Shown here in pieces: positions 1,027 through 22,036 of a DNA stretch of 40,521 nucleotides. This stretch comes from Gemmataceae bacterium (lineage in GTDB: Bacteria > Planctomycetota > Planctomycetia > Gemmatales > Gemmataceae). Both the position numbers and the translations under genes were made by a program. The notes under the pieces were generated by a model. That model was not told the origin of the DNA and ran no database searches. It was given only the letters and a program-made list of their open reading frames with translations. Position 1 is the stretch's first letter; each line of letters begins with the position of its first letter. The stretch is taken from positions 1 to 40,521 of the forward strand of contig JANWYO010000261.1 in the NCBI GenBank assembly GCA_025055215.1, written 5' to 3'.

Positions 1027-1069
1027 GGTGCGACTCGCTTGACCGAAGGATGCTCCCGTGGCAACGACG

Positions 1070-1954
<885 letters not shown>

Positions 1955-1978
1955 CGCGGGCACCGTCCTGAGCGAGTG

Positions 1979-2296
1979 TCAGCGACCGTCCTCGGTGGAG
2001 GAAGCACGGTCGTCGTGGAGGTAAATCCGGTCGAGGATGCAGCCGGCATAGGCATCCACCGGCTTTTTCGCCGGGGTGAACGGGGCGGCGGCCTCGGCCC
2101 CCTCGGTAAACCCGACGCGCTGGCCCACCCCGGCCCCCAGCACGTCCAGGAGGACGATGTCTTCTCCGTCGGGCCGGCCGGCCGCGAGGCCGCTCCGACT
2201 GAAGGGAACGCCGATGATCCAACGGGCGCCCCGCACGCTCGGATGCACCCGCGACAGCGTCACCACGCCGATGACTTCAGCGATGCGCATGACCAT
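1979..2296 (-). CDS. BMC-P pentameric vertex protein (EutN/CcmL family), third copy
   Basis: A shell protein of 105 aa that should form pentamers capping the vertices of the microcompartment. The N-terminus (MRIAEVIGVVTLSRVHP) and the later segments DIVLLDVLGAGVGQRV and VDAYAGCILDRI are the standard EutN/CcmL pattern. It has a slightly longer middle loop than the other two copies. The start overlaps the end of the RpiB-like gene by 20 bp. Two ATGs lie 6 bp apart (2296 and 2290); GGGAG stands 4 nt before the first and 10 nt before the second, so either may be used. Three different BMC-P genes in one operon is a hallmark of PVM-type loci. Confidence 0.93.
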   Translation of the reverse strand: MVMRIAEVIGVVTLSRVHPSVRGARWIIGVPFSRSGLAAGRPDGEDIVLLDVLGAGVGQRVGFTEGAEAAAPFTPAKKPVDAYAGCILDRIYLHDDRASSTEDGR

Positions 2297-2738
2297 CTAG
2301 CTCCCGCAGCACGCCCGCCACGCTGGCGGGGCAGTCTGCGGTGACACTCTCTTGGCACAACCGCAACAGCTCCCGGCACTCGAAATACGTCCGTCGGTTC
2401 GGGTCCACGACCAGGAGGTTGGCCCGCCAACGGCCGATGGCCCGCCGGGCCTGCTCCAGGGTGTCCACGGCCAGGCAGCGGACGCCGGGAACCTTGTTGG
2501 CGATGCAGCAGGCCAAGCCGGGGTCGTGACAGAAGACGACGGCGGCGCGACAGAGGCCATCGCGGAGCGCTTCGGCAATGCGGCGGACCCAGGCCGCCGC
2601 GTCGCCCTCGGCCGCGGGCAGGGCGGCGCCGGCTCCGTTGCGGCGCTGGTGCGCCCGCAGTGCCGCCTGCAACAAGGGCGATGGCCGACCCTCGACCGCG
2701 TAGCCCCAGCCGGCCTTGTGGTCGCCCGTGCCGCTCAT
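2277..2738 (-). CDS. RpiB/LacAB-like protein of unknown role, conserved position in the BMC operon
   Basis: A 153-aa protein whose residues 65-130 resemble the second half of ribose-5-phosphate isomerase B: VVFC (C70 aligns with the RpiB catalytic Cys), then CCIANKVPGVRC and a segment like the A-x-x-A-R helix and NVL/LG strand. The GTGIG phosphate loop is replaced by HDPG, and the usual N-terminal strand with its Asp-His residues is not recognisable; the first 35 residues look unstructured. It overlaps the preceding vertex gene by ATGA (2735-2738) and the following one by 20 bp, so it is translationally coupled to two shell genes. It may be a sugar-phosphate binder, a divergent isomerase or a structural factor. 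Fold similarity is moderately supported; function is not known. Confidence 0.8.
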   Translation of the reverse strand: MSGTGDHKAGWGYAVEGRPSPLLQAALRAHQRRNGAGAALPAAEGDAAAWVRRIAEALRDGLCRAAVVFCHDPGLACCIANKVPGVRCLAVDTLEQARRAIGRWRANLLVVDPNRRTYFECRELLRLCQESVTADCPASVAGVLRELDGHAHR

Positions 2739-2992
2739 CCGTCACAAATCCCCAAAACGAACCAACGGGCCGGTGAATCCGCCGCTCCCACCAGTTTCCT
2801 GGCTTCCGCCCCATCGTTGCAGGCGATGACCCGGCTCCCCGGCCCCGCCCCCAGCTGGTCCAGGGCCAGGATCGGCTCCCCGTCATCGCCGCCGTCGGCG
2901 GCCAACAGCTGGAGGAGCAACAGCCGCCAGCCGCGATAACTCGGGTGCTTGACCGTGGCCACCGCCTGCCCGATGACCCGCGCCAGCTGCAT
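2735..2992 (-). CDS. BMC-P pentameric vertex protein (EutN/CcmL family), second copy
   Basis: A compact 85-aa EutN/CcmL protein, close to the minimal length of the family. It starts MQLARVIGQAVATVKHPSY and contains ILALDQLGAGPGSRVI, the conserved core that packs at the pentamer interface. It has a strong ribosome site (GGGGAGGAG, about 7 nt before ATG 2992) and its stop overlaps the next start as ATGA. The gene follows the aldehyde dehydrogenase by 39 bp. The C-terminus (WFVLGICDG) ends just after the last strand, without a tail. Confidence 0.93.
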   Translation of the reverse strand: MQLARVIGQAVATVKHPSYRGWRLLLLQLLAADGGDDGEPILALDQLGAGPGSRVIACNDGAEARKLVGAADSPARWFVLGICDG

Positions 2993-3031
2993 GCGTCGTC
3001 TCCTCCCCGCTTCGTTCGTGTCGACGACACC

Positions 3032-4447
3032 TCATACAATTCGCAGGCTGCCCACGGTGGTCGTCCGCCGCTGACGGGTGAACGTCAGCGGCGTCGTCAC
3101 CCCTTCGCCCGTGGGCGTGGCAATGCTGAAGCTCAAATATCCCTCGCCGCCGCTCCCCAAGCCGGCCATGCTCGGACCGTTCTGAATAAACAGCGTGGTG
3201 TCCAGCTCCCGGCCCATGCGCGTGATGGTCTCGACGTTCCGCGAATGGATGATGGCCGTGTGCTTGAAGCCGTGCTCGTATTTCTTGGCCAGGGCGATGG
3301 CGGTATCGACATCGGGCACGCGAACAAACGGGATGAAGGGCATCATCTGTTCGTGGGAGACGAAGGGATTGGTTTCGAGCGTCTCGCCGAACAGGATTTC
3401 GGTGTCGGCGGGGACCGTCAGGCCCACGTGGCGGGCCAGGATGGCGGCGTCCTGGCCGATCAGGTCTTTGTTCACGGAAAGGTGTCCCTTTCCGTCGTCG
3501 ACGAATGCCACCCGGGTCAGCGACTCGATCTGCTTGGCATCCAGCCTCACCCCCTTGGCGCGGGCGACCGCGTCCAGCAACTCGTCGAAGATGCTGGCGA
3601 CGGCGAAGACTTCCTTCTCGCCGATGCACAAGAGATTGTTGTCGTACGCGGCCCCGGCCACGATGGAACGGGCGGCGTTTTCCAGGTCGGCCGTCTCGTC
3701 CACCACCACCGGCGGGTTCCCCGGGCCGGCGACCACCGCCCGTTTCGGGCTCCGCAGGGCGGCCCGACCCAGCGCCGCTCCACCGGTGACGCAGAGCATT
3801 TTCACGTCGCGATGGTCGAAAATCGCCTGGGCCGTTTCCAACGTCGGCTGGGCAATGATGGTCACCAGGTTGTCGATCCCAATCGCCTCGTGGATCGCCT
3901 GGTTGAACAGCCGTGTCCCTTTGACCGCAACCTGCGCTCCGGCGGGGTGCGGGTTGCAGACCAGGGCGTTGCCGGCCGCCAGCATGTTGATGGCATTGCA
4001 CGCCAGCGTCGGCAGCGAATGCGTCACCGGGGTCACGACACCGATGACGCCAAACGGCGCGTATTCCTGGAGAGTGATGCCGTGTTCGCCGCTGAAGGCC
4101 TCGGTTTTCAGAAACTCCACTCCCGGAATCCGCTCGGCGATGACCTTCAGCTTTTCGATCTTGTGCGGCAGCCGGCCGATCTTCGTCTCCTCGAACTCCT
4201 CGCGGCCGAGGGCCTCGGCGTGCTCGGAGCAGATGCGGCGGATGCAGTCCACCGCCTTGCGGCGGTCGGCGAGGCCCCGGCGCTCAAATTGCCGCTGGGC
4301 CTCGACCGCAGCCTGCACGGCGCTGTTGACGTCGTCGAAGACCCCCCACGGCCGAGCCTGACCGTTGGTTGGTCGGCTCGGCCCCGAACGCATCTGCGCC
4401 AACACGTCTTGCACAATCGAGCGGATCAATTCGTCAGTGACTTGCAT
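3032..4447 (-). CDS. CoA-acylating aldehyde dehydrogenase of the microcompartment (PduP/EutE-like) with N-terminal encapsulation peptide
   Basis: Expected to oxidise lactaldehyde to lactyl-CoA with NAD+ inside the shell. The 471-aa protein matches the PduP/EutE family: VTPVTHSLPTLACNAINM (138-155) in the cofactor domain, NPHPAG (165-170), GPGNPPVVVD (241-250), and the nucleophile C274 in NNLLCIGEKE. The first ~20 residues (TDELIRSIVQDVLAQMRS) form a predicted amphipathic helix joined by a Pro/Gly-rich linker to the enzyme, as in other encapsulated aldehyde dehydrogenases. A purine-rich site (GGAGAAAGGGA) precedes ATG 4447. It lies between two vertex protein genes, so shell and cargo genes alternate. 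The family is sure; lactaldehyde as substrate is inferred from the aldolase in the operon. Confidence 0.95.
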   Translation of the reverse strand: MQVTDELIRSIVQDVLAQMRSGPSRPTNGQARPWGVFDDVNSAVQAAVEAQRQFERRGLADRRKAVDCIRRICSEHAEALGREEFEETKIGRLPHKIEKLKVIAERIPGVEFLKTEAFSGEHGITLQEYAPFGVIGVVTPVTHSLPTLACNAINMLAAGNALVCNPHPAGAQVAVKGTRLFNQAIHEAIGIDNLVTIIAQPTLETAQAIFDHRDVKMLCVTGGAALGRAALRSPKRAVVAGPGNPPVVVDETADLENAARSIVAGAAYDNNLLCIGEKEVFAVASIFDELLDAVARAKGVRLDAKQIESLTRVAFVDDGKGHLSVNKDLIGQDAAILARHVGLTVPADTEILFGETLETNPFVSHEQMMPFIPFVRVPDVDTAIALAKKYEHGFKHTAIIHSRNVETITRMGRELDTTLFIQNGPSMAGLGSGGEGYLSFSIATPTGEGVTTPLTFTRQRRTTTVGSLRIV

Positions 4448-4510
4448 CGCTGGTCCCTTTCTCCAGACGCCGCGGCGGGCGACTGCCGACCGGCGTCCTC
4501 GGTGGCAACC

Positions 4511-4822
4511 TCATGCCCGGGCCGAAAAGATCGTCCGATTCTCCACGTTGACCGTATCGACGATGCCGACAATGGCGGCATCCACGGGCAGCTTCTCGGT
4601 TTCCGGCGTAAAGCGGGCACTGGAGCCCTGCACAATCAGCACCAACTCCCCTTGGCCCGCACCGACCGTATCGACCACCACGAATGTCCGCCCGGTGCCG
4701 ACCAGGCGGTCGCGCTGGGCCGGGTCCACGCGAAGGGGCTCGACGGTCAGGAGCTTGTGGCCGGTCATGCTGGCGACTTTCTGCGTTGCGACCACGCTGC
4801 CGGTGACTTTGGCCAGGAACAT
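4511..4822 (-). CDS. BMC-P pentameric vertex protein (EutN/CcmL family), first copy
   Basis: A 103-aa vertex protein starting MFLAKVTGSVVATQK, with FVVVDTVGAGQGELVLIVQGSS-like core (given here only in outline) and the C-terminal VDAAIVGIVDTVNV strand. This copy is the most canonical of the three: the VDxVGAGxGE and PVDAAIVGIVD patterns are typical of EutN. GAGG lies 7 nt before ATG 4822. It is separated from the kinase gene by about 100 bp that hold a strong hairpin. Confidence 0.95.
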   Translation of the reverse strand: MFLAKVTGSVVATQKVASMTGHKLLTVEPLRVDPAQRDRLVGTGRTFVVVDTVGAGQGELVLIVQGSSARFTPETEKLPVDAAIVGIVDTVNVENRTIFSARA

Positions 4823-4839
4823 GATGTTTCCTCACTGTC

Positions 4840-4871
4840 GGCGGCGTGGCCCGGTGCCGGGCCCCGCCGCC
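4840..4871 (-). other. strong intercistronic hairpin between kinase and vertex-protein genes
   Basis: Two 7-bp arms (GGCGGCG and GGCCCGG with their complements) stack around a single T/C mismatch with a 2-nt apex, giving about 14 GC-rich pairs. It lies within the operon, 17 nt upstream of the ATG at 4822, and there is no T run, so it is more likely an mRNA processing, stabilising or attenuating element than a full terminator. Confidence 0.5.
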
Positions 4872-4924
4872 GGGCCAAGGGGCCTGGCGCTCGCCTCCCG
4901 CGACCGATGGCCGCTCGGCGACAT

Positions 4925-6115
4925 TCAGCCGGCCCCACGACGGTTCAACCACTCTTGCGCCTGCCGGGCGACGATCAACTCCTCGTTGGTCGGCATGATC
5001 CAGATGGCCACCCGGCTGGCGTCGGCGTGGATCGGCACTTCGCCCTGGGCGGTGCGGTTCTTCTCGGCATCCAGGGCAATCCCGAACCAGTCGAGCTGGT
5101 CGCAGATCATGGCGCGGAGGAGGGCGGAATTTTCGCCGATGCCGCCGGTGAAAACGATGGCGTCGGCGCCGTTGAGGCGGACGAGGTAGGCACCCAGGTA
5201 GTGGCGGACCGAGGCGGCGAAGACTTCCAGGGCCAGGTGTGCCCGGGAGTTGCCCCGAGCGCTGGCTTGTTCCAGGTCGCGGAGGTCGTTGCTGAGGCCG
5301 CTGAGCCCCAGGAGCCCGGAGCGCTGGGCGAGGTCGTCGAGCACCTGCTCGAGCGACCTGCCCGTGGCCCTAAGGAGGGCTGGCAAGGCGAAGACGTCGA
5401 AATCGCCGACACGGTTGTTGTGGGGCAGGCCGCTCTGCGGGCTGAAGCCGAGGCTGTTGGCCAGCGACTGGCCAGCGCGGATCGCACACAGGGAGCTGCT
5501 GCCCCCGAGATGGCACGAGATGATCCGCGCTTCGGGGTCGCCCAGCCGCTGCGCGGCCCGCTCGGCGATGTAGCGGTGGCTGGCTCCGTGGAAACCCCAG
5601 CGCTGGATACCGTAGCGCTCCGCCCATTCCCAGGGGACGGCATACAGCCGGTCGGCCGGGGCGATGGTCGCGTGAAAGGCGGTCTCGAAGGCGGCGATCA
5701 GGGGGATGTCCGGCAACTGCTCGTGCAGCAACCGCATGGCCTGGACGTAGGGCGGGTTGTGGGCCGGGGCCACGTCGTTGTATGCCTCCATGGCCGCCAG
5801 CACCCGCTCATCCACCCGTTGGACGCCGCTGATCCCTTGAGCATGGACCGCCTTGAAGCCGATGGCCGACAATTCTCCCGGATCGCGCAGGCAACCGTGG
5901 TCAGTCAGTTGCTGGAGGCAGAGCCGCACCGCCGCGGCGTGGTCGGGGGCCAGGACCTCCGCCTCGGTGCGCTGGCGGGCGACTTCGACGAAGCACCGCG
6001 ACTTGGGCGAGCCGATACGTTCCACTCCTCCGCGTGCCAGCACCGTCTCGTCCGTCATGTCGAAGAGACGGTACTTGAAGCTGGTGCTGCCGAGATTGGC
6101 CACCAGGACTTTCAT
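4925..6115 (-). CDS. ackA: acetate/propionate kinase family enzyme (acyl-phosphate to acid plus ATP)
   Basis: A 396-aa member of the acetokinase family, full length. The N-terminus MKVLVANLGSTSFKYRLFD has the Asn and Ser of the first phosphate loop. HGASHRY, HLGGSSSLCAI and FTGGIGENSALLR are the expected ATP- and substrate-binding motifs. Within this operon it should convert the acyl-phosphate made by PduL (lactyl-phosphate if the cargo pathway starts from lactaldehyde) to the free acid and recover ATP. No encapsulation peptide is visible, so it may act in the cytosol. GGGAG stands 7 nt before ATG 6115. The symbol reflects the family; the true substrate need not be acetyl-phosphate. Confidence 0.93.
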   Translation of the reverse strand: MKVLVANLGSTSFKYRLFDMTDETVLARGGVERIGSPKSRCFVEVARQRTEAEVLAPDHAAAVRLCLQQLTDHGCLRDPGELSAIGFKAVHAQGISGVQRVDERVLAAMEAYNDVAPAHNPPYVQAMRLLHEQLPDIPLIAAFETAFHATIAPADRLYAVPWEWAERYGIQRWGFHGASHRYIAERAAQRLGDPEARIISCHLGGSSSLCAIRAGQSLANSLGFSPQSGLPHNNRVGDFDVFALPALLRATGRSLEQVLDDLAQRSGLLGLSGLSNDLRDLEQASARGNSRAHLALEVFAASVRHYLGAYLVRLNGADAIVFTGGIGENSALLRAMICDQLDWFGIALDAEKNRTAQGEVPIHADASRVAIWIMPTNEELIVARQAQEWLNRRGAG

Positions 6116-6137
6116 CGTCGCGCTCCCGTGGGCCAGC

Positions 6138-6162
6138 GCGGGGCCCGCCGGGCGGGCCCCGC
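6138..6162 (-). other. very GC-rich hairpin between BMC-H and kinase genes
   Basis: A perfect 10-bp inverted repeat (GCGGGGCCCG / CGGGCCCCGC, 5-nt loop) fills the gap between the first BMC-H stop and the kinase start. There is no T tract. It separates the abundant shell genes from the enzyme genes downstream and could protect the upstream mRNA or reduce read-through. Confidence 0.5.
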
Positions 6163-6179
6163 GGTCCCGGAGTCTGCCA

Positions 6180-6479
6180 TCACTTCAGGAACATCTCCAA
6201 CACGGCCTCATCCGGCCGGGGAATCACATGGGCGCTGACCAGTTCGCCGTTGGCGCTGGCCGCTTGGGCGCCGGCATCGACGGCGGCTCGCACCGAACCG
6301 ACGTCGCCGCGGACGAACGTGGTGACGTAAGCGTTGCCGATCTGCACTTGGCCGGCCAGCGTGACGTTGGCGGCCTTGCACATGGCATCGGTGGCGGCGA
6401 TGGTGGCGATCAGGCCTCGCGTTTCGATCAGGCCGAGCGCCTCGTGGTTGGCACCGTTACGCAGAGAGTTGAGGGCCAT
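6180..6479 (-). CDS. BMC-H hexameric shell protein with an unusual pore sequence
   Basis: A single-domain BMC-H protein (99 aa) that should tile the facets of the microcompartment. [20 protein letters not shown] (13-32), AANVTL and FVRGDVGSVRAAVDAG are the canonical BMC core, and the C-terminus ends VISxP-like (HVIPRPDEAV). At the central pore the family usually has I-G-S-G; here it is I47-G48-N49-A50-Y51, so larger side chains line or shape the opening. AAGGAAG precedes ATG 6479 by about 8 nt, one of the best ribosome sites in the operon, fitting the high copy number a facet protein needs. It follows the second BMC-H gene by 33 bp. Confidence 0.97.
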   Translation of the reverse strand: MALNSLRNGANHEALGLIETRGLIATIAATDAMCKAANVTLAGQVQIGNAYVTTFVRGDVGSVRAAVDAGAQAASANGELVSAHVIPRPDEAVLEMFLK

Positions 6480-6512
6480 GAGTCAGCTTCCTTTTTCCCA
6501 GGGTTCACGAAA

Positions 6513-6836
6513 TTAACCACCCACACCGGCGGGCTGGGCCGCCGTCTTCTTCCCCGCCACCGGCAGGACGGCACCGAGGTCGTCGTGCGGCCGCGGCAGG
6601 ACCTGGACGCCGACGACTTCGCCGACCCGGCCGGCGGCGGCCGCCCCGGCATCGACCGCCGCTTTGACGGCGGCCACGTCGCCGACGATGAACGCCGTCA
6701 CCATGCCGCTGCCGATTTTCTGCCAGCCGAGCAGGGTGACGTTCGCAGCCTTGAGCATGGCGTCGCAGGCCTCGACCAGCGCCACCAGCCCCTTGGTTTC
6801 AATCAGACCTAACGCTTCCAAGTGAGCACTCGCCAT
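6513..6836 (-). CDS. BMC-H hexameric shell protein with canonical GSG pore and C-terminal tail
   Basis: A 107-aa BMC-H facet protein. [20 protein letters not shown] (5-24) and [15 protein letters not shown] (40-54) are textbook BMC-H, with the usual I-G-S-G pore loop at 41-44. After the fold ends (VLPRPHDDL) there is a 20-residue Ala/Gly/Pro tail. The reading frame is open upstream to 6893, but ATG 6836 is preferred: GGGGGAG lies about 8 nt before it and the BMC domain begins right after it. It is transcribed just after pduL and just before the other BMC-H gene, which differs at the pore, so mixed facets with two kinds of pore are likely. Confidence 0.96.
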
Positions 6837-6907
6837 TGCATGTCTCCCCCAGAGGGTTGCCAGAACCGGGTCGCGGCGGCGACGGGCGTCCACCGCCCCG
6901 CATCAAG

Positions 6908-7582
6908 TCAACGGAACAATTCCACTTTGGTTGCATGAGACAGGTCACACGCATTGCCTTCGTCCGTGTCGAGGTGGACCTCCAGTTTCGACTTGGGATC
7001 GACTCGGCACAGCAGGTTCTCGAAGACCACCGAACAGCTGCTGGTGACCCGCAAGTGGATGCGGTCGCCGTCGCGGACACCGTAAAAAGCGGCATCGGCC
7101 GGGCCCATGTGAACGTGGCGTTCGTGGCGGATGACGCCACGCGGCAGCTGAATCATGCCGGCGGGGCCGAGAAGGTAGCAACCAGGCGAATCGCGGTGGT
7201 CGCCGCTGCGGCGGACGGGCACGTCGAGGCCCAGGGCGATGGCGTCGGTGAACGCCAGCTCGACTTGGCTGTGGTCGCGGCAAGGGCCGAGGATCCGCAG
7301 GTTCGGGATCAGGCGGTGGCGCGGGCCGATGATGGTCACCGTTTCCTCGGCGGCGAAAAAGCCCTCCTGATACAGCCACTTGGCCGGCGTCAACCGGTGG
7401 CCCTTGCCGAACAGACGCTCGAGGTCTTCCTGGGTGAGGTGGCAGTGGCGCGCCGAGACGTTGACCACCAGCTTCGGGGCGGCGGCCGACCCGTTGGCAG
7501 CTGGCAGCCGAGCGAGCCGCTTGGTCAAGGCCTCCCGCACTAAGCGCTCCACCACAGACCGGTCAATGGTGGCCAGGCTCAT
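6908..7582 (-). CDS. pduL: PduL-type phosphate acyltransferase with N-terminal encapsulation peptide
   Basis: Transfers the acyl group from CoA to phosphate, regenerating CoA inside the shell. The 224-aa protein has both PduL halves and its zinc ligands: H46 and H48 in SARHCHL, H156 and H158 in RHERHVHMGP, with H203 in EVHLDTDEGNA. Residues 6-23 (DRSVVERLVREALTKRL) form a predicted amphipathic helix followed by an Ala/Gly linker, the usual PduL targeting peptide. The start overlaps the stop of the DeoR gene by ATGA, so regulator and enzyme are translationally coupled. It is the first cargo gene in the operon. In PVM-type organelles the natural product is probably lactyl-phosphate, inferred from the aldolase and aldehyde dehydrogenase downstream. 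Confidence 0.96.
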   Translation of the reverse strand: MSLATIDRSVVERLVREALTKRLARLPAANGSAAAPKLVVNVSARHCHLTQEDLERLFGKGHRLTPAKWLYQEGFFAAEETVTIIGPRHRLIPNLRILGPCRDHSQVELAFTDAIALGLDVPVRRSGDHRDSPGCYLLGPAGMIQLPRGVIRHERHVHMGPADAAFYGVRDGDRIHLRVTSSCSVVFENLLCRVDPKSKLEVHLDTDEGNACDLSHATKVELFR

Positions 7583-11967: not shown

Positions 11968-14067
11968 GTGACTACCAACTTCAACACGGCGTCTTCGGTC
12001 GATGCCAACCTGCTCGAGCAGGCCAGGCGGCAAGTCAACCGGCTAATCGAGGAAGTCGCCCGGCTCTCCGAGTTGGACCTGTCACCGGCGAACTACTACT
12101 GCGAGTTCCTGGAACGGGTCTTGACGGCGATTGCCGCTCCCGCCGGGGCGGTTTGGCTGCGGAACCCGCAGGGCCATTTGCAGTTACAGTACCAGGTGAA
12201 CATCCGCCAAGTCGGCATCGACAAGGACGACGCCTGCCGGCAGGTCCATTCCGAACTGCTCCGCCACGCCTCCAACACCGCCCGGCCGATGCTGGTGCCG
12301 CCGCACAGCGGCGCCGGCGACGTCCAGGACGGTTCCTCGGCCGGCAACCCCACCGACTACATGACCCTCATCGCCCCGATCCTGATCGAAAAACAGGTCG
12401 TCGGCCTGGTCGAGGTCTGGCAGAGCCCCGACCGCAATCCGGAAGCGCAGCGCGGGTTCCTTCAATTCATGGTCCGCATGGCCGAGTTGGCTTCCATCTA
12501 CACCCGCAACCAGCAGCTGCGGGCCATGGTGGGTCAGCAGCAGATCTGGACCCAACTGGAAGCCTTCACCCGCCAGATCCACGGCAGCTTGCACCCCACC
12601 GAAGTCTCCTACCTGATCGTCAACGAAGCACGTCGGCTGATCGACTGCGATCGCGTCAGCGTGGCCACCCGCAATGGCAAGCGAACGAGCATCGAAGCGA
12701 TCAGCGGTGCCGACGTGGTGGAAAAGCGTTCCAACCTGGTGCAGCTGATGCGCCGCCTCTGCGACGAGGTGATCGTCTGGGGCGAAAAACTGACCTTCAC
12801 CGGCCAGCTGGACGACAGCCTTCCCCCCAAGGTGTTTCGCGCCCTCGACGAGTACCTTGCCGAGAGCAACAGCAAGCTGCTGGTGGTGTTGCCGCTTAAG
12901 GATGAGCGGCAAAAGGACACGCACCAGCCGGCCCGGGCAGCGCTGGTGATGGAGTCGTTTGAGCCAGCCGCCTCGCCGGAACAGCAGACGGCCCGGTTGG
13001 AAGTCATCGCCCGGCACGCCACCAGCGCCTTGTACAACGCCCTGGAATATCACCGCATTCCGATGCGCTTCTTGTGGCTGCCGTTGGCCCGGATGCAAGA
13101 AGGTTTGGGGGGCAAGGCCCGGTTCGTCACGGCCACCGTCGGCACCGTGTTGGTGGCCATCGTGCTGATGCTGATTTTCGTCCCCTATCCCCTGAAGCTG
13201 GACGCCCAAGGGACGCTCCTGCCCATGACGCGGCGGTGGACGTATTCGCCGGTGCCGGCCACGGTGGTGCGGTTTGAGGATGCGATCAAGCCGGGGGCCA
13301 AGGTGACCAAGGGCCAGCACTTGGTCAAGATGTTCGACTACGACTTGCAGATGACCCTCAACCGTCTCAAGGCCGAAATCGCCGACGCCACCAACAGCAT
13401 CCCGGCCCTTGAGGCGCAGCTCAACACCACGACCAATCCCACGGAAAAGCTGCGTATCGGCACGGAAATCGCCCAAAAACGCTCCCTCCTCCAACGGAAG
13501 CAACGGGAGCTGGACAACTTCCGCGAGCGCACCGATTCCGTGGCCGACTCCCCCGGCTATTTCATGCTCAAGGCGCCGATCGACGGCACCATCCTCAGTT
13601 GGGACTTCCGCGAGACGTTGACCAACCGCTACGTCAAGCCGTCCGACCCGCTCCTCCGCATCGGCGACTTGTCGGACCGCTGGGAGATCGAGCTGAAAAT
13701 CCCGCAAAAATACATCGGCCAGGTGCTACGGGCCTTCGATCCAAAGGATCCCCAGGCGACCCTCGACGTTGACCTGTTGCTGTTGACGAAACCGACGGAA
13801 ACGTTCAAAGGGAAGCTGTCGCGCGACCGCATCGCCGCCGAGGCCACGCCTGATAAGGACAACCCAACCGATTCGGAGCCAGTGGTGCTCGTCTCAGTGC
13901 GGATCGACGGCGACGACATTCCCGAAGCCTACCGCATTCCCCGCGAATATCTGACCACCAGTACGGAAGTCCACGCCAAGGTCCGGTGCGGCAACCGACG
14001 CATGGGCTACTCGCTCTTCTTCGGCTTGTGGGAATTCTTCTACGAAAAGGTGGTTTTCTTCTTCTAA
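11968..14067 (+). CDS. GAF-domain protein fused to an HlyD-like membrane-fusion adaptor
   Basis: A 699-aa fusion. Residues about 25-375 are cytoplasmic and hold one or two GAF-like sensor domains (for example LTAIAAPAGAVWLRN and RRLIDCDRVSVATRNGKR), separated by a helical linker. A single membrane segment lies at 386-408 (FVTATVGTVLVAIVLMLIF). The outer part is HlyD-like: PATVVRFEDAIKPGAKVTKG is the first half of a lipoyl/barrel-sandwich domain, then a coiled coil with LRIGTEIAQKRSLLQRKQ, the second half FMLKAPIDGTILSW, and a beta-barrel. The C-terminus is strongly hydrophobic and ends FFYEKVVFFF. Start set at GTG 11968, 7 nt after GAGG. It is the first of four co-directional genes and probably senses a small molecule inside the cell and passes this to the envelope partner proteins; that role is inference. 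Confidence 0.85.
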   Translation: MTTNFNTASSVDANLLEQARRQVNRLIEEVARLSELDLSPANYYCEFLERVLTAIAAPAGAVWLRNPQGHLQLQYQVNIRQVGIDKDDACRQVHSELLRHASNTARPMLVPPHSGAGDVQDGSSAGNPTDYMTLIAPILIEKQVVGLVEVWQSPDRNPEAQRGFLQFMVRMAELASIYTRNQQLRAMVGQQQIWTQLEAFTRQIHGSLHPTEVSYLIVNEARRLIDCDRVSVATRNGKRTSIEAISGADVVEKRSNLVQLMRRLCDEVIVWGEKLTFTGQLDDSLPPKVFRALDEYLAESNSKLLVVLPLKDERQKDTHQPARAALVMESFEPAASPEQQTARLEVIARHATSALYNALEYHRIPMRFLWLPLARMQEGLGGKARFVTATVGTVLVAIVLMLIFVPYPLKLDAQGTLLPMTRRWTYSPVPATVVRFEDAIKPGAKVTKGQHLVKMFDYDLQMTLNRLKAEIADATNSIPALEAQLNTTTNPTEKLRIGTEIAQKRSLLQRKQRELDNFRERTDSVADSPGYFMLKAPIDGTILSWDFRETLTNRYVKPSDPLLRIGDLSDRWEIELKIPQKYIGQVLRAFDPKDPQATLDVDLLLLTKPTETFKGKLSRDRIAAEATPDKDNPTDSEPVVLVSVRIDGDDIPEAYRIPREYLTTSTEVHAKVRCGNRRMGYSLFFGLWEFFYEKVVFFF

Positions 14068-14165
14068 GACCATCCGAGCGAACGACGGACACGGCGTAGG
14101 AGTCGGCAATGTGGCCGCGACCTTCCCCGGGTGCTGGGTCGTGGGAACGACGGAGGAGGACGGCG

Positions 14166-16208
14166 ATGAGATACACCCTTGCGAGCACAGCGAGCCTGGG
14201 CCTGCTGGCTGTGGTGTTGGCTGGCTGCAACAGCCCGGCCTCCCCGGCCGTGGCCGCTTCCGACAAGACCGCGCCGACAGACGAGGAAGCCACCACCCGG
14301 TCACTGCACGAGCGAGAAACCGGCGCCCCACTCTATCAGGTGGAAGCCCCCAAGCTCCCCGACGCCGACGGCCACGCCAAACCCGATGAAATCCTGCCCG
14401 ACCCGGTGGTCCTGCACAACAGCCGCGTCACCATCTACGAAAAGCGCGAAGTCCCTTCGCAACGCGAAGGCGTCGTCCTGTGCATCGGGCGGGAGCTGGA
14501 GCCCGGTGAAACGCCGGAGAGCATCCCGGCCGACCGATTGATCCAGGTCAAGATCGGCGGTGAACCGAAGTATTTTTACCGCCTGAAGGAGGGAGACCGG
14601 GTCAAGCAGGGGCAGCTGCTGGCCCAACTCGACAATCGCCTGGCCCTGGGGGAATACACCAAGCGTGTCTGCGAGCGGACCAAGGCCGAGTCCGAGAGCC
14701 GAGCCACCGAATTGACGAAGGAGGAAGCGTATCAGCGGTACCTGACGATCGACAAGCTGCGCGGGCAAGGCAAGGGACGGGCACCGGACGAGGAGGTGCG
14801 CGGGGCGTGGCTGACCTGGAAACGCTATGAATCCGAGACGGAATCGAAGCGCGAGGCGGTCAAGCAGGCGGAAAGCGAAATGAAGCAGGCCCTGACCGTC
14901 CTCGACATGCACCAGATCCGGAGCCCGATCGATGGCACCATCAAGACAATCTACAAAAAGTCGGGCGAGGCGCTCAAGGCGATGGAGCCGATCTTCCATG
15001 TCCAGAATGATGACCGTCTGCGGATCGAAGGGCTGATGGAGCTGCAACACCTGGCGCGGGTGTCGGCCCACCCGGACCGCTGCCGGGTGGTGGTGGAAGC
15101 ATCGTACCCCACGAGTCCGTTCTTGACGCTGACCGGTCACATGCAAGAGGTCAACGGTGTGGCGGTCCGGCAGGGAGGGAAGGACGTACTGGTGGTGTCG
15201 GCCAGCGAGGACGGGACGGTCGGGGTCTGGAGCAAGGCGTCGGCGGGGCTGGTGAAGCTTTTGCGGCATCCGGGGCCGGTGAAGGCGGTGGCCTGCACGC
15301 CGCCGTCCGCCAAAGCGTCGTGGTGCGTTTCCGGGGCGGGCGATGGCAAAGTGCGGGTCTGGGAGCTGGAGCCGCTCCGCGACGAGCCGCTGCGCGTGCT
15401 GGCCGGGACGCACGAAGGGGCCGTCACTTGCGTCGCCATCAGCCCCGACGGCGAATGGGTTGCCAGCGGTGGCGAGGACCGCAGCATTATCATCAGCCGA
15501 CTGTCCAGCGGCGAGGAAAAGTTCCGCGTTAAAGGGGCCCACAGCGGCGCCATCACCTCGATCCAGTTCACGCCCATCTCCGGCCTGGTCACGGCTGGCC
15601 GGGACAACAGGCTCCGCACCTGGAAGCTGGGTGAAGCCGGCGCCCGCCTGGAACTGAGCATCGACCGGCGCTCCGGCGACGTGACGACCCTGGGCGTCAG
15701 CCCGGACGGCAAGCGCATGCTCTTCGACCAGGGTAAGGAGTTGCGCGTCCTTGGTCTGGAGAACGGCCTGACCCAGGCCACGTTGCAATCGCCGGCCGGC
15801 GCGGCCAGCTTCACCACCTTGGCCCTGTTCTCGCCCGACGCCCAGCTGATCTTGACCGCTGGGGGCGCGGAACACCGCCTCCAGCTGTGGCGGACCCCGA
15901 CGCGGCGAACCCGCGGCTATGAAGTGCGGCAGCTGGTGGCGGCCGACCATTCCGTGCCCACTTGCGCCGCCTTCGCCCCAGATGGGTCGTTCATCGTCAG
16001 CGGCACCCGCGACCACAAAGTCCTGCTGTGGTCCGTGCCCGCCAAGGAGGAGATCGAACGGCAATTGGTCGCCCAGATTACCCGCATCGACCGGTCGGTG
16101 GATTCCGGCCAGCGTCACGTCAGCATCTGGGCCGAAGTGGACAACCGTGACGGCCGGCTCGTGCCGGGCACGACGGTGACCATGGCGATCTATCCACCGG
16201 GAAACTGA
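14166..16208 (+). CDS. lipoprotein HlyD-like adaptor with an inserted WD40 propeller
   Basis: A 680-aa predicted lipoprotein: signal peptide with lipobox LAGC (Cys at about residue 20). Residues 82-318 are a membrane-fusion adaptor: VTIYEKREVPSQREG, then YRLKEGDRVKQGQLLAQLDN, a long helical hairpin, and IRSPIDGTIKTIYKKSGEAL. Residues about 319-627 are WD40 repeats (LTGHMQEVNGVAV, SEDGTVGVWS, GDGKVRVWEL, GEDRSIIIS, GTRDHKVLLWS). The last 50 residues (ISIWAEVDN-like and LVPGTTVTMAIYP) match the end of an adaptor beta-barrel, so the propeller seems inserted in that barrel rather than added at the end. GGAGGA stands before ATG 14166. It lies between the GAF/HlyD gene and the M50 protease gene. 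Confidence 0.85.
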   Translation: MRYTLASTASLGLLAVVLAGCNSPASPAVAASDKTAPTDEEATTRSLHERETGAPLYQVEAPKLPDADGHAKPDEILPDPVVLHNSRVTIYEKREVPSQREGVVLCIGRELEPGETPESIPADRLIQVKIGGEPKYFYRLKEGDRVKQGQLLAQLDNRLALGEYTKRVCERTKAESESRATELTKEEAYQRYLTIDKLRGQGKGRAPDEEVRGAWLTWKRYESETESKREAVKQAESEMKQALTVLDMHQIRSPIDGTIKTIYKKSGEALKAMEPIFHVQNDDRLRIEGLMELQHLARVSAHPDRCRVVVEASYPTSPFLTLTGHMQEVNGVAVRQGGKDVLVVSASEDGTVGVWSKASAGLVKLLRHPGPVKAVACTPPSAKASWCVSGAGDGKVRVWELEPLRDEPLRVLAGTHEGAVTCVAISPDGEWVASGGEDRSIIISRLSSGEEKFRVKGAHSGAITSIQFTPISGLVTAGRDNRLRTWKLGEAGARLELSIDRRSGDVTTLGVSPDGKRMLFDQGKELRVLGLENGLTQATLQSPAGAASFTTLALFSPDAQLILTAGGAEHRLQLWRTPTRRTRGYEVRQLVAADHSVPTCAAFAPDGSFIVSGTRDHKVLLWSVPAKEEIERQLVAQITRIDRSVDSGQRHVSIWAEVDNRDGRLVPGTTVTMAIYPPGN

Positions 16209-16283
16209 CGAGTTGCGCGTCACGATTGTCGGTGCTTGGCCCCATGGCCGGGGCCAAGTACCGTGGTGGCTTGGGGAGGACTT

Positions 16284-18542
16284 ATGCCGGCTGCGCCACC
16301 CATCACCCTCAGCCCGGACCTGGAACGGCGCAAAAAGGTCCGCCTTCGCCTCCGCTCCGACCTGACGATCACCCCGACTCGTTACGAGGGCAAGACCTAT
16401 CACATCGTCAAGGATCCGGTTAGCCTCCGCTACTACCGCTTCAAAGAGCAAGAGTATTTCCTTCTGCGGATGATGGATGGCAAGCACACCTTGGACGAGA
16501 CGCAGAAGGAGTTTGAGAAGCGCTTTCGGCCGGAGCGGTTGTCGCTGGAAGACCTGGAGGCATTCGCCCAGCAGCTGCTGAAAGTGGGGCTGGCGCACAA
16601 CGAGTCGCCGCAGGCCGGTCAGCAGCTGTACGAGAACAAGCGGAAGCGCCGGCGGCGTGAGATCCTGGCGGCCCTGACCAACATCCTGTACATCAAGGTT
16701 CCCGCCTACGATCCGGACAAGCTCCTGACGCGGATGCTTCCCTGGTTCCGCTGGATGTTCACGCCGTGGTTCTTCGCCTTCAGTGTGTTGTTCATGCTCT
16801 CGGCCATCCTCCTGGTGGCCACCCATTTCGACACCTTCCTCGACAAGCTGCCGGCCTATCATGAATTTTTCAATTTCCAGAGCCTGGCTTACATGTGGTT
16901 CGCCCTCGGCTCAGTGAAGATCATTCATGAGTTTGGCCACGGCCTGAGCTGCAAGGCCTTCGGCGGCGAAGTCCACGAGATGGGGCTGTTGGCCCTGTGC
17001 CTGTCGCCCGCCATGTATTGCAACGTCTCCGATGCCTGGACGCTGCCCAACAAATGGCACCGCATGATCATCAGCTTCGCGGGCATCTACGTCGAACTGA
17101 TGATCGCCGCCCTGGCCACCTTCATCTGGTGGAACACCCCCTCGCAACCGTTCATCAACAACCTCTGCCTGAGCCTGATGATCGTCTGCTCCGTCAGCAC
17201 GGTGATCTTTAACGGCAATCCGTTGATGCGGTTTGACGGCTACTACGTGTTGGCCGACTGGCTGGAAATTCCCAACCTGCGGGAGAAATCGGGACGGTTC
17301 CTCCAGCGCCTGATCCTCGACAAGTGTCTGGGAGTCGAGGTGGCGCCAGAGCCCTACATGGCCCCTTGGCGGCGCGTCCTGTTCGTGACTTACGCGATTG
17401 TCAGCAAGGTGTACATGTGGGTCGTCACCTTCAGCATCCTCTTTTTCATGCACCGGTTCCTGGAGCCGTACAAATTAGGCATCATCAGCAAAGCGATGAC
17501 CCTGATGGCGGTGGTGTCGCTGTTCGGCTGGCCTCTGGGTCGATTCATCCACAACCTGCACAAGCGGGGGAGACTTCCCGACATGAAGCCCGCGCGTGTC
17601 TGGACCACCTGTACCATCCTGACCCTCATCGTCCTGTTCATTTTCACCGTGCCCCTGCCCGTGGCCCGTGTACGGGAGACGGCCCTGATCGAGTTGAAGC
17701 CGGAAGCGGTCGAGAAGGTATTTGTCCCATTTCCCGGTGGGGTGCTGGAGCACATGCCGATCCGCTATGGGCAATACGTGGAAAAGGGGGACATTCTGGC
17801 CCAGTTCCGCAACATCGAGCTGGAGAACCAGCTGGAGGAGGCCCGGAGCGAATACGACATCCGCACCGCTCAGATTGCCGCCCTCCGCAAGCAGCGCGAT
17901 GAAGCGTTCGATCCGCTGGAGCGGGAAGCGATCAACGTGCGCATCCAGGCGGTCATCGGGGAACAGGAACAATTCTTCCGCAAGCAGCAGACGCTGTCCG
18001 AGGCATTTCGCCGCCTGGTATTGCGGGCCCCCCGCTCCGGCGTGGTCATCAACCCGCCGCGGGTCGAGGAAATCGGCAAGCTTTGGGAGAAAGACTCGGA
18101 CCAGCCGTTCTGTAGCATCGGTGATCCGAGCCAGCTGCGGGCCTTGGTCCCCGTGCCGCCGATGGACTATCGCCTCCTCAAGGACAACTTCCACAACTGC
18201 CGGCGTCGCAATGCCGACCTGCTTGCCACCATTCGCGTCAAGGGCCAGGTCGAGCGGACCTGGCCCGGCCGGGTGTCCCAGCTGCCGGAGGCCTCGGCCA
18301 CGGAGGTGCCCATCCAGCTAACCACCCGCGGAGGCGGCCCCTTGGCTGTTAAGCCGACTTCCCGGCCGGACCGGCTTGAACCGCAGAGTCAGCAGTACCT
18401 GGTGGCCGTCGATTTCCTCCAGGCGGATCGCTCGATCTGTCCGGGAACGCTCGCCCAGGTGAAGATCCACTGCGAGTGGCAGACGATCGCCTGGTGGTTG
18501 TGGCGGGTGATAAATGCCACCTTCGACTTGGGGTTGATCTGA
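16284..18542 (+). CDS. M50 site-2-type zinc protease with N-terminal PqqD-like and C-terminal HlyD-like domains
   Basis: A 752-aa polytopic protein. Residues about 20-110 look like a PqqD/RRE winged helix (YYRFKEQEYFLLRMMDGKHTL, then LEAFAQQLLKVGL), a fold that binds leader peptides in RiPP systems. The membrane core has the zinc motif HEFGH (215-219) and the third ligand D318 in NGNPLMRFDGYY (310-321), both intact, so it should be active. About six to eight membrane segments surround these. From about residue 470 there is an HlyD-like part: GGVLEHMPIRYGQYVEKGD, a coiled coil, VLRAPRSGVVINPP and a barrel ending SICPGTLAQVKI. Start ATG 16284 follows GGGAGGA. Family known from peptide-zinc-metalloprotease annotations; substrate unknown. 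Confidence 0.88.
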   Translation: MPAAPPITLSPDLERRKKVRLRLRSDLTITPTRYEGKTYHIVKDPVSLRYYRFKEQEYFLLRMMDGKHTLDETQKEFEKRFRPERLSLEDLEAFAQQLLKVGLAHNESPQAGQQLYENKRKRRRREILAALTNILYIKVPAYDPDKLLTRMLPWFRWMFTPWFFAFSVLFMLSAILLVATHFDTFLDKLPAYHEFFNFQSLAYMWFALGSVKIIHEFGHGLSCKAFGGEVHEMGLLALCLSPAMYCNVSDAWTLPNKWHRMIISFAGIYVELMIAALATFIWWNTPSQPFINNLCLSLMIVCSVSTVIFNGNPLMRFDGYYVLADWLEIPNLREKSGRFLQRLILDKCLGVEVAPEPYMAPWRRVLFVTYAIVSKVYMWVVTFSILFFMHRFLEPYKLGIISKAMTLMAVVSLFGWPLGRFIHNLHKRGRLPDMKPARVWTTCTILTLIVLFIFTVPLPVARVRETALIELKPEAVEKVFVPFPGGVLEHMPIRYGQYVEKGDILAQFRNIELENQLEEARSEYDIRTAQIAALRKQRDEAFDPLEREAINVRIQAVIGEQEQFFRKQQTLSEAFRRLVLRAPRSGVVINPPRVEEIGKLWEKDSDQPFCSIGDPSQLRALVPVPPMDYRLLKDNFHNCRRRNADLLATIRVKGQVERTWPGRVSQLPEASATEVPIQLTTRGGGPLAVKPTSRPDRLEPQSQQYLVAVDFLQADRSICPGTLAQVKIHCEWQTIAWWLWRVINATFDLGLI

Positions 18543-18573
18543 CGGGAGCCGAGGGCTTGCGAGTGCCAGCGCC

Positions 18574-19245
18574 ATGGGGACGAGCGGGAACATGAGGGCG
18601 TCGGTGAGTGCCGCGGAACGCCGCAAAGCCACCTCCGCGCAGAGCCGTCGTCGATTGCGTTCGCAGGAGCAACGGCCGCTTGTGCTCCGGCGAGCTCAGG
18701 AGGTCTTGAGCCAGTGCGGCTATCGGGACACCACCTGGGCGCGCGTCGCCGAGGCCGCCGGTGTCTCGGAGACGACCGTCAGCCGCATGTTCAAGACCAA
18801 GGCCGGCCTCGTGCGGGCGATCCTCGAGGAATTGGCGACCGCCACCGTGCGCCGCTGGCGCGGCGAGATGGCGTTGATGAGCGACCCGCTGGGAAAATGG
18901 CACGCGGCTGCCGATTTCTGCACGACGGCGGCCCGGGAGCATGCCGAGACGCTCCGCCTGCTCTACCGCGTTTACCACGAGGCGGACGACCCCGACGTCA
19001 CCGCGGCGGTCCAAGGCCTTGGCCAGGAGGTCGAAGACCTCCTGGCCGACATCATCCGCGAAGGGCAGCAGGCCGGCGTCTTCCGCTTGTCGCTCGATCC
19101 CCGCGTCGCAGCCTGGGAATTGGTGCATGCGACCATCGGCCGAGCAGTCACCGCGACGTTGCCGGTCCCCGTGGTGCAATCGGAAACTTACGCCGCGCAG
19201 GCGCATGATTGCGCCCTCCACGGCCTGCTCAAGACCGACGTGTGA
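18574..19245 (+). CDS. TetR/AcrR-family transcriptional regulator
   Basis: A TetR-type repressor of up to 223 aa. The DNA-binding domain is RAQEVLSQCGYRDTTWARVA, then AGVSETTVSRMFKTKAGLV, with the classical turn; the C-terminal helical ligand domain (LADIIREGQQAGVFRL) is of normal length. Start is uncertain: ATG 18574, ATG 18592 and GTG 18604 are in frame, and the last has GAGG 5 nt upstream. The N-terminus before the helix-turn-helix is Arg/Ser-rich and may be partly untranslated. It follows the M50 gene by 31 bp and is likely co-transcribed with the adaptor operon; the palindrome at 11813-11830 is a possible target. Ligand unknown. Confidence 0.88.
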   Translation: MGTSGNMRASVSAAERRKATSAQSRRRLRSQEQRPLVLRRAQEVLSQCGYRDTTWARVAEAAGVSETTVSRMFKTKAGLVRAILEELATATVRRWRGEMALMSDPLGKWHAAADFCTTAAREHAETLRLLYRVYHEADDPDVTAAVQGLGQEVEDLLADIIREGQQAGVFRLSLDPRVAAWELVHATIGRAVTATLPVPVVQSETYAAQAHDCALHGLLKTDV

Positions 19246-19414: not shown

Positions 19415-22036
19415 ATGAGGATTGTTTCCGTGGTGCGTACTGGGTTGATGATTGCGGCGTTGGGGGGCTTGCTGACTGTCTCTGGTGGTGGAGCCCAGGA
19501 CAAGCCCGTGAAAAAGAAGCCACCGGAACCGCCCGTCAAGAAGGCGGCCACTCCAGCGGAGGAGTTGGACACCCTCCCGGGCTTTCGCGTGGAGCTTCTG
19601 TACACTGCCGACCCGCCGACCGAAGGATCCTGGATCAACCTGGCGAAAGACCACAAAGGCCGACTGTTGATAGGCGGTCAGCGCGGGCAGCCGATGTTGC
19701 GGATGACGTTGGCCAACGGCAAGGTCGGGAAGGTGGAAAAGCTGTCAGTCCCGCTCACCGAGGTGATGGGACTTTTGTATGCGTTCGACAGCTTGTACGT
19801 CGTCGGCGCCGGTCCGGGCGGGGCTTACGGGCTGTATCGCTGCCGCGACACCAAGGGAACCGACCAATTCGACGACATCAAACTCCTGAAAGACTTCCGC
19901 GCCGGCGGAGAACATGGCGCCCACGCGGTGGTCCTCGGCCCGGATCGCAAGAGCTTGTGGGTCCTCAACGGCAACCACACCGACGTGCCGCCGGGGATGT
20001 CGCCGCAGTCGCCCCACCGCAATTATCAAGAAGACTTGCTGCTGCCCCGACAATGGGACGGCAACGGCCACGCCGCCGGCCGCCTGGCGCCCGGCGGCTA
20101 CGTCCTCCGCACCGACCCGGACGGCCAGACTTGGGAACTCATGCTCGGTGGTTTCCGCAACGCCTACGACATGGCCTTCAACGCCGACGGCGAATTGTTC
20201 ACCTTCGACAGCGATATGGAATGGGATTGGGGCTTGCCGTGGTATCGCCCCACCCGGGTCAACCACTGCACCAGCGCCGCGGAGTTCGGCTGGCGCTCCG
20301 GCACCGGCAAATGGCCCGACTACTACCCCGACAGCCTCCCCGCCGTCGTCAACATCGGCATCGGCTCACCCACCGGCGTCACCACCGGCGCCGGCGCCCG
20401 TTTCCCCGCCCGCTATCAGAAGGCACTCTACATCTGCGACTGGACCTACGGCCGGCTCATGGCCGTGCACCTGACCCCCAAAGGATCCAGCTACACGGCC
20501 ACTTTTGAAAACTTCGTCGCTCCCAAGGGGCTGAAAGGAGACGGCCGCAAGCTGCCGCTCAACCTCACCGACGTCGTCGTCGGTGACGACGGGGCGTTGT
20601 ACTTCACGGTGGGTGGCCGAAATACCCAGGCTGCCCTCTACCGGGTGACGTATGTCGGGCCGGAATCGACGGCCCCAGCCGACCTGCGCGACGCCGAGGG
20701 GGCCAAGGAGCGGGCCCTGCGGCGGTCGCTGGAAGCGTACCACGGCCGAGCGGATCCCCAGGCGGTGGCGGCGGCATGGCCGCATCTGGGCAGCGACGAC
20801 CGCTTTTTGCGGTACGCGGCCCGAATCGCCGTCGAAAGCCAGCCGCTGAGCGAATGGCAGGCCCGCGCCGTAGCGGAGACCCGCCCGACGGCGGCCCTGA
20901 CCGCATTGTTGGCGTTGGCCCGCTGCGGCCCACGGGAGAGCCAGCCCGCGCTCCTGACGGCGCTGGCCCGGTTTCCTCTGGCCTCGCTGCCGGAAGACCT
21001 CCAACTCGACAAGCTGCGCGTGTTGGGCGTCAGCTTCGCGCGCCAAGGGCGGCCGGCCTCTCCCGAGGCCGTCCGCCAGCTGGTCGCCGAGCTGGACCCG
21101 CTGTTTCCCAGCAGCAGCGAGCGGCTCAACCGGGAGCTGGCGATGGTGCTCATTTACCTGGGGGCGCCGCGCGTCGCGGAAAAGTCGCTGAAGCTGATGG
21201 CTGCCGCCCGGACGCAGCCGGACCGGCTCCATTACCTCTTCCACCTGCGGACACTGCCGATCGGCCACTGGACGCTGCCGCAGCGGCGGGAGTATTTCGC
21301 CTACTGGTCGAAGGAGCAGAAAAAGTTGCCCCACGACCCAGAGCTGTTGCGGTGGTTTGCCGAGGCCGGTCGACCGCCTGCCGACGGCAACAGCTTTGCC
21401 AACTACATGAAGAATTTCTTCAAGGAGGCGACGGCGAACCTCTCCCAAGACGAGCGGCAGGCCTTGGCCGACCAGCTGAAGGCCATCGACCAGGCGAGCA
21501 TCCGCACCTACGACATCAAGCCGCGGCCGGTGGTCAAGGAATGGAAGATGGAGGACTTGTTGCCGCTGCTGGATCGCGTCGATCGCGGCCGGAATTTCGC
21601 CCGGGGCCAGGAAGCGTATCTGGCCGCTCAATGCATCAAGTGCCATCACTTCGGCAACGAGGGGGGGACGATTGGGCCCGACCTGACGGCCATCGCCGCT
21701 CGCTTCAGCCGCCGCGACATGCTGGAATCGATCCTGGAGCCGAGCAAGGTCATCTCCGAGCAGTACCAGAACGAGGTCATCACTACCGTTGCAGGCAAGG
21801 TCTATACCGGCCGCCTGATGGACGAGACCGCGGACACGCTCGTCCTCCAGCCGGACCCGCTCTCCCCGGAGCGGGTCGAGATCCGCAAAGCGGACGTGGA
21901 GACGCGGGCCCCATCGAAGGTTTCACCGATGCCGGAGCATCTGGTGGACGTGCTGACCGCCGAGGAAATCCTCGACTTGTTGGCCTACCTGGAATCGATG
22001 GGTCGGCGGAACTACCGGGCGTTTCACCAGAAGTAG
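19415..22036 (+). CDS. secreted PVC-type heme protein: sugar-dehydrogenase-like propeller, helical repeats and CxxCH cytochrome domain
   Basis: An 873-aa exported protein of a family expanded in Planctomycetes. After a signal peptide (hydrophobic core [11 protein letters not shown]) comes a long beta-propeller related to soluble glucose/sorbosone dehydrogenases ([58 protein letters not shown]). The middle (about 430-700) is Ala/Leu-rich helical repeats. Near the end a single heme site CIKCH (740-744) in [20 protein letters not shown] is followed by the usual heme-domain sequence with [17 protein letters not shown]. It should be a periplasmic redox enzyme, perhaps oxidising sugars. The exact start is uncertain: ATG 19415 has no clear ribosome site. 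It stands alone, closed by a hairpin at 22079-22116. Confidence 0.88.

Follow-up and report, generated by a model that had tools for sequence, protein, structure and literature searches.

The locus considered here lies in a window of 40,521 nucleotides (the whole stretch of DNA that was analysed) from a planctomycete genome whose assembly amounts to 4.58 Mb, referred to below as the host genome. Among the fetched relatives that resemble the window most are MAGs labelled Gemmataceae, and the window probably comes from that family. Four open reading frames follow one another on the + strand, and the domains that an earlier sequence-only reading had claimed for them (GAF, a lipoprotein with WD40, M50, HlyD-type parts and TetR) are borne out by the window ORFs and by Pfam matches. 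The first three genes, their main parts and the fourth gene are as follows.

11968..14067, + strand: gene 1, GAF-adaptor; GTG start most likely (Pfam GAF 9.8e-9, HlyD_3 8e-9)
14166..16208, + strand: gene 2, lipoprotein adaptor with 7-bladed WD40 propeller, 680 aa (RBS, lipobox, AlphaFold2 model)
15114..16043, + strand: propeller of gene 2, residues ~317–626 (DSSP of the AlphaFold2 model; structure match 7big)
16284..18542, + strand: gene 3, RRE-like (PqqD-type) domain, M50 site-2 protease and HlyD/MacA-type adaptor, 752 aa (Pfam/NCBIfam; AlphaFold2 model; structure matches)
16338..16607, + strand: predicted RRE-like domain of the leader-binding type, gene 3 residues 19–108 (structure matches 5v1v, 6jx3)
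16926..16940, + strand: HEFGH zinc site, gene 3 residues 215–219 (H215, E216 and H219 invariant)
17211..17240, + strand: NGNPLMRFDG, gene 3 residues 310–319, including D318, presumably the third ligand of the zinc (D318 and P313 invariant)
17655..18488, + strand: adaptor (membrane-fusion) part, gene 3 residues ~458–735 (match to MacA)
18574..19245, + strand: TetR-family regulator, a neighbour judged to lie outside the system (TetR_N 6.4e-10)

In gene 1, two GAF domains (residues ~48–172 and ~211–355) are followed by one transmembrane segment and a periplasmic HlyD-type adaptor (~440–650). The better starts of genes 2 and 3, at 14166 and 16284, both have GGAGG upstream; gene 2 contains the lipobox LAGC and matches WD40 (8.5e-37) and HlyD_3 (4.8e-9), and gene 3 matches Peptidase_M50 (1.6e-6) and, more weakly, PqqD (0.0069, below the cut-off) and HlyD/biotinyl-lipoyl. 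The claim that no pump, ABC protein or outer-membrane channel is encoded holds for the genes adjoining the trio within the window but not for the genome, in which about eight TolC-family (OEP-family) proteins and a secondary SecA are encoded on other contigs.

Predicted folds of the second and third proteins

The AlphaFold2 model of gene 2 (pLDDT 85) runs from lipoyl and hairpin parts through the first strands of the barrel and a complete 7-bladed propeller to the remaining barrel strands, the propeller being nested in the adaptor beta-barrel with strands 275–292 before it and strands 634–643, 651–659 and 670–676 after it (DSSP). It superimposes on the 7-bladed propeller 7big with a Z of 37.1 and an rmsd of 2.0 over 283 residues. 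A propeller is present in 46 of the 120 middle genes compared; the other 74, which come for the most part from families beyond the two nearest, encode plainer adaptors, most of them of 260–470 aa, and short adaptors lack the propeller at the same insertion point inside the adaptor barrel. The propeller is therefore an addition, specific to certain lineages, to what is otherwise an ordinary adaptor. The one match given by PADLOC, in gene 2, was driven by WD40 and was not accepted as a sign of defence.

Gene 3 possesses both zinc motifs of a site-2 protease (M50), HExxH and the NPxxDG type. The sequence-only reading had called the zinc site intact, and rightly so: HEFGH and NGNPLMRFDG are complete, H215, E216, H219, N310, P313 and D318 show no variation among 18 planctomycete relatives, and 10 proteobacterial relatives likewise keep H215, E216, H219, P313 and D318 without exception. 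In the AlphaFold2 model (pLDDT 81) residues 19–108 match TbiB1 with its leader peptide (5v1v; Z 11.6, 86/88 residues, rmsd 2.5) and the lasso peptide B1 protein with leader (6jx3; Z 11.1), residues 193–328 match the site-2 protease RseP orthologue 7w6y (Z 10.2), and the C-terminal part is matched by MacA as it stands within the MacAB-TolC pump (9qgy; Z 16.0), all of these Z values being derived from one multi-domain model and the RRE match spanning almost the whole small domain. A Rhizobium relative of gene 3 matches PqqD at 1.5e-6 (Pfam). In its predicted fold the N-terminal domain thus resembles an RRE, a PqqD-type winged helix, and may bind a leader.

The same predicted fold would fit a RiPP-type system in which a small peptide binds to the RRE/M50 protein through its leader, has that leader cut by the same protein, in a daptide- or epipeptide-like manner, and is exported by the adaptors. 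Gene 3 does match the NCBIfam daptide metalloprotease model (3.5e-58) and the YydH/LiaK epipeptide protease model (1.9e-11), and it shares with these enzymes of peptide leader processing an M50 protease with a PqqD-like start. The daptide match, however, scores 197.5 bits against a curated cut-off of 300 (NF041824), and unlike those proteases gene 3 is fused to an adaptor, belongs to an adaptor trio and has giant proteins as its apparent substrates. Beside the trio in relatives there is no modifying enzyme and no conserved small precursor; the small gene conserved nearby in other orders encodes DUF3467 rather than a precursor, and the relatives' modules adjoin genes for giant proteins. We consider a RiPP-type system unlikely.

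The locus in relatives and the module described in 2015

Of 59 related genomes, 54 encode the M50-adaptor, and nearly all fetched planctomycete loci repeat the order GAF-adaptor, adaptor, M50-adaptor, so that the trio recurs far beyond chance; the lack of an M50 match in G016, G021 and G025 (93–95% complete) may be an assembly gap. The co-occurrence of the trio genes proposed as a check by the sequence-only reading is thus found in relatives, where the trio is not paired with a standard pump, and the search for a small peptide gene as conserved neighbour gave none in the loci of close relatives. The TetR regulator had been counted as a component. As no TetR gene stands beside the trio in any of the 59 relative loci (blastp), it is not part of the system.

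Neither the upstream glycosyltransferase genes nor the downstream cytochrome gene is kept beside the trio in relatives. The latter (19415–22036, +) codes for a secreted protein that ends in a cytochrome c domain, as is typical of the membrane-bound dehydrogenase-like proteins of planctomycetes. Elsewhere (25–7582, - strand) the window carries a bacterial microcompartment locus, which we presume to resemble the planctomycete fucose/rhamnose microcompartment and which comprises the following genes.

25-1026, - strand: lactate/malate dehydrogenase
1070-1963, - strand: class II aldolase
1979-2296 and 2735-2992, - strand: two EutN/CcmL pentamer proteins
6180-6479 and 6513-6893, - strand: two BMC shell proteins
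6908-7582, - strand: phosphate propanoyltransferase

Among the small neighbours, DUF3467 is found in Pirellulales-type loci, adjoins the module in many relatives and is also encoded in the host genome; it gave no sequence match in the PDB, and that it may act as a SecB-like chaperone is offered as an idea only. In some close relatives (loci L043, L046, L047, L054, L056, L058, L110 and L139) a conserved ORF of 100–170 aa (LTRGLGDAEARMLVEWLVDRAE-like), missing from the window, lies just upstream of the GAF-adaptor gene.

A module in which genes for M50-HlyD, HlyD and GAF-HlyD proteins accompany one for a secondary SecA_DEAD protein was described in 2015 by Kamneva, Poudel and Ward from planctomycetes as well as verrucomicrobia, proteobacteria and other groups (PMC4452313). 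They did not report an ABC transporter in this module, noted that parts of it may sit elsewhere in the genome, and suggested secretion while leaving its role open (PMC4452313). Adjacent GAF-HlyD, HlyD and M50-HlyD genes are what we find at the window locus. The host genome encodes a secondary SecA of 701 aa (G000:C255:869-2974), which groups with the module SecA2s on a branch separated from canonical planctomycete SecA with 100/100 support. SecA2 is not encoded in the window, and its presence at the same locus is not a required feature of the module (PMC4452313); it lies directly upstream of the trio in several planctomycete loci (including G047 and G056) and adjoins the M50 gene in many other families. 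The trio belongs to the 2015 module, with which it shares the three protein types, the conserved neighbourhood and a secondary SecA that falls with the module-linked ones in the SecA tree, and it is a variant differing in that SecA2 is unlinked, on another contig, and the middle adaptor bears a 7-bladed propeller. The impression that the combination fits no well-described system has therefore to be narrowed: the module was described in 2015 together with its secondary SecA, but its function was left open there (PMC4452313).

Two types of module can be distinguished, one with GAF and SecA2, often also with DUF3467, and one with TolC that is devoid of both SecA2 and GAF; because the second type lacks SecA2, the motor is not universal. 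GAF-adaptors occur in alphaproteobacterial modules as well, and TolC genes lie inside several proteobacterial modules. Site-2 proteases commonly act in signalling, and together with the GAF domains the site-2 protease fold would suit a regulatory, signal-gated protease, the GAF domains sensing a small molecule, the M50 domain cleaving a membrane-bound regulator and the adaptors serving as a scaffold only. Three adaptors, the TolC genes of the proteobacterial modules and a SecA motor nevertheless point to transport, and among the genes of the locus we saw neither a conserved anti-sigma factor nor a conserved regulator, the TetR gene not being conserved, which makes a purely regulatory function quite improbable in our estimation.

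Tagged giant proteins as candidate cargo

The planctomycete extracellular motif PF07595 is introduced in PMC8567305, where Studholme 2004 is cited for it, as a putative export signal, and 52 genes of Tuwongella immobilis, including those of 8 of its 10 longest proteins, carry it (PMC8567305). Discussed below as the LExRxLL/LEPR-XLL tag, this 'cell-surface' export motif of planctomycetes is PF07595 in Pfam and has its NCBIfam counterpart in the LEPR-XLL domain NF012209; the same tag is borne by giant genes adjacent to the module and by proteins of the host genome. The searchable literature names no exporter for tagged proteins, and we found in it nothing on LEPR-XLL export, on PqqD, HlyD and M50 in combination, or on giant proteins with site-2 proteases.

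In proteobacteria the tag is present on all nine of the large module-adjacent genes with a known N-terminus. Three are annotated LEPR-XLL proteins on plasmids of Thalassospira, Pseudosulfitobacter and Pontibrevibacter, and the tag is in all six N-termini read by us (e.g. FEALEPRLLLSAD, VLALEPRMMFDAA and RFALESRQLFDGA). The module neighbours include an Ig-like gene of 31.5 kb in Mesorhizobium, a LamG gene of 26.5 kb in Methylosinus, a DUF4347 gene in Niveispirillum, Ig-like genes in E. coli and Kosakonia, and, on a Variovorax plasmid (L195), a giant gene of 48.7 kb with tandem-95 repeats directly before a TolC/adaptor/M50 module; the plasmid modules of Azospirillum and Phyllobacterium have no obvious tagged neighbour. 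On the Variovorax plasmid a type II secretion cluster comes after the stretch with the giant gene and the module. Among 72,556 plasmid records, ~81 contain the M50-adaptor, and all five records that match the LEPR N-terminus at E≤0.01 carry it; these five include the record of the query itself and three related plasmids of Rhizobium, so that the independent cases number fewer than five.

For the phylum, the LEPR-8K model (NF012209) at E≤0.001 gave matches in 3 of 59 related genomes, a low yield due to its 24 positions being too short for this threshold, and our own 26-column profile (A3), trained partly on module-adjacent proteins, was used instead. Among 244 genomes of the phylum, A3 detects the tag in 58 of the 75 with the M50-adaptor versus 16 of the 169 without it (Fisher 5e-26), and outside the class of the window in 26/37 versus 16/167. 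The association persists when stratified by family (within-family permutation, p=2e-4). No tag was detected in 17 of the 75 genomes with the M50 gene, and the 16 genomes with a tag and without this gene contribute 19 matches, about 3 being expected by chance. A link between SecA2 and the tag within one family is only suggestive (p=0.07). A strict form of the motif has 11 occurrences in 907 proteins, all of them within the first 150 residues, three of these 11 having been fetched by the motif itself.

These data bear on the possibility that the trio takes part in efflux of small molecules or metals with an unlinked pump, the correlation with the tag reflecting shared lineage only. The RND/MacA-like adaptors and the TolC-family proteins of the genome would agree with such a function. 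It would, however, leave the RRE-like domain and the protease unexplained, no pump was seen beside the copies examined, and the association with the tag holds within families, outside the class and as direct adjacency in proteobacteria; we deem efflux very unlikely.

The host genome encodes at least nine tagged proteins in frames of ~620 to 4,055 aa, most of them with Ig-like, FG-GAP, cadherin, NHL, CAP or cyclophilin domains, and in this genome neither a tagged gene nor SecA2 is linked to the trio. PF07595 itself gives weak matches in this genome (0.011 and 0.038). The best of the tagged proteins, a cyclophilin/Ig protein, is homologous (34%, 5e-47) to the tagged protein encoded beside the module in G056. 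The leaders are devoid of a Sec-like hydrophobic core, their maximal Kyte-Doolittle values being 0.5–1.8 versus 2.6 for the lipoprotein signal. One tagged host protein (G000:C330, L240) has an open frame of ~4,055 aa with autotransporter-type PATR repeats. Six further A3 matches in the host genome (L238, L242, L243, L244, L247 and L249) look like out-of-frame chance matches and were discarded. In place of the peptide cargo suggested earlier, the likely cargo is the large tagged surface proteins encoded elsewhere in the host genome.

A possible export route for tagged proteins

We consider it probable that the trio forms the envelope-spanning core of a machine for the export and processing of large surface proteins with an N-terminal LExR tag. 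The conservation of the trio, the secondary SecA, the genomic link to tagged giants, the RRE-like predicted fold and the protease motifs constitute the computed support. The chances appear to us evenly balanced for the wider proposition that planctomycetes and proteobacteria share a distinct class of secretion system, made of a SecA paralogue, a fusion of RRE, site-2 protease and adaptor, and accessory adaptors, in which the LExR leader is recognised and cut in the membrane and proteins of giant size, with coding sequences of up to tens of kb, are passed through a TolC-type channel.

We infer the mechanistic steps, including the leader cleavage site and the role of the propeller, to be of the following kind. 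The secondary SecA encoded elsewhere in the host genome would drive the substrate, the basic LExR leader of which may be bound by the RRE-like domain of the M50 protein and cut, at the membrane or within it, by the site-2 protease. The three adaptors, one tethered to GAF domains, one to the protease and one anchored by lipid and bearing the propeller, would build the path through the periplasm that leads to a TolC-type channel. Gating of this route or sensing might fall to the cytoplasmic GAF domains, and the propeller may perhaps hold the substrate or the sister adaptors. The envelope complex for processing or export envisaged by the sequence-only reading is in this respect retained, the conserved gene order, the invariant motifs and the giant neighbours in relatives arguing for it, except that TetR does not belong to it.

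The proposed route resembles type I secretion and MacAB-TolC in the adaptor fold and the probable TolC partner. It differs from them in that the trio has no ABC or RND protein, the inner-membrane part being the RRE-M50 protein, in that the proposed signal is N-terminal rather than C-terminal, and in that the motor would be of the SecA type. The LExR-tagged cargo and the RRE-like domain are not found in the paper on the 2015 module (PMC4452313); what is new here is the assignment of this cargo and of this recognition domain, both of which are testable. If true, the proposal answers the question of how tagged giant proteins leave the cell, and suggests that leader recognition of the RiPP style, as in the maturation of peptide natural products, also serves protein secretion. 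The joining of an orphan module (PMC4452313) to the tagged proteins makes both of them accessible to experiment, in planctomycetes that are in culture as well as in those alphaproteobacteria that possess giant LEPR-XLL proteins.

An E. coli plasmid (L187, 7478-13773) also carries a related module that lacks SecA2 and comprises TolC, two adaptors and the M50-adaptor, accompanied by a tagged 13-kb Ig-like gene; it is found in 24 of 5,426 E. coli genomes and is mostly plasmid-borne.
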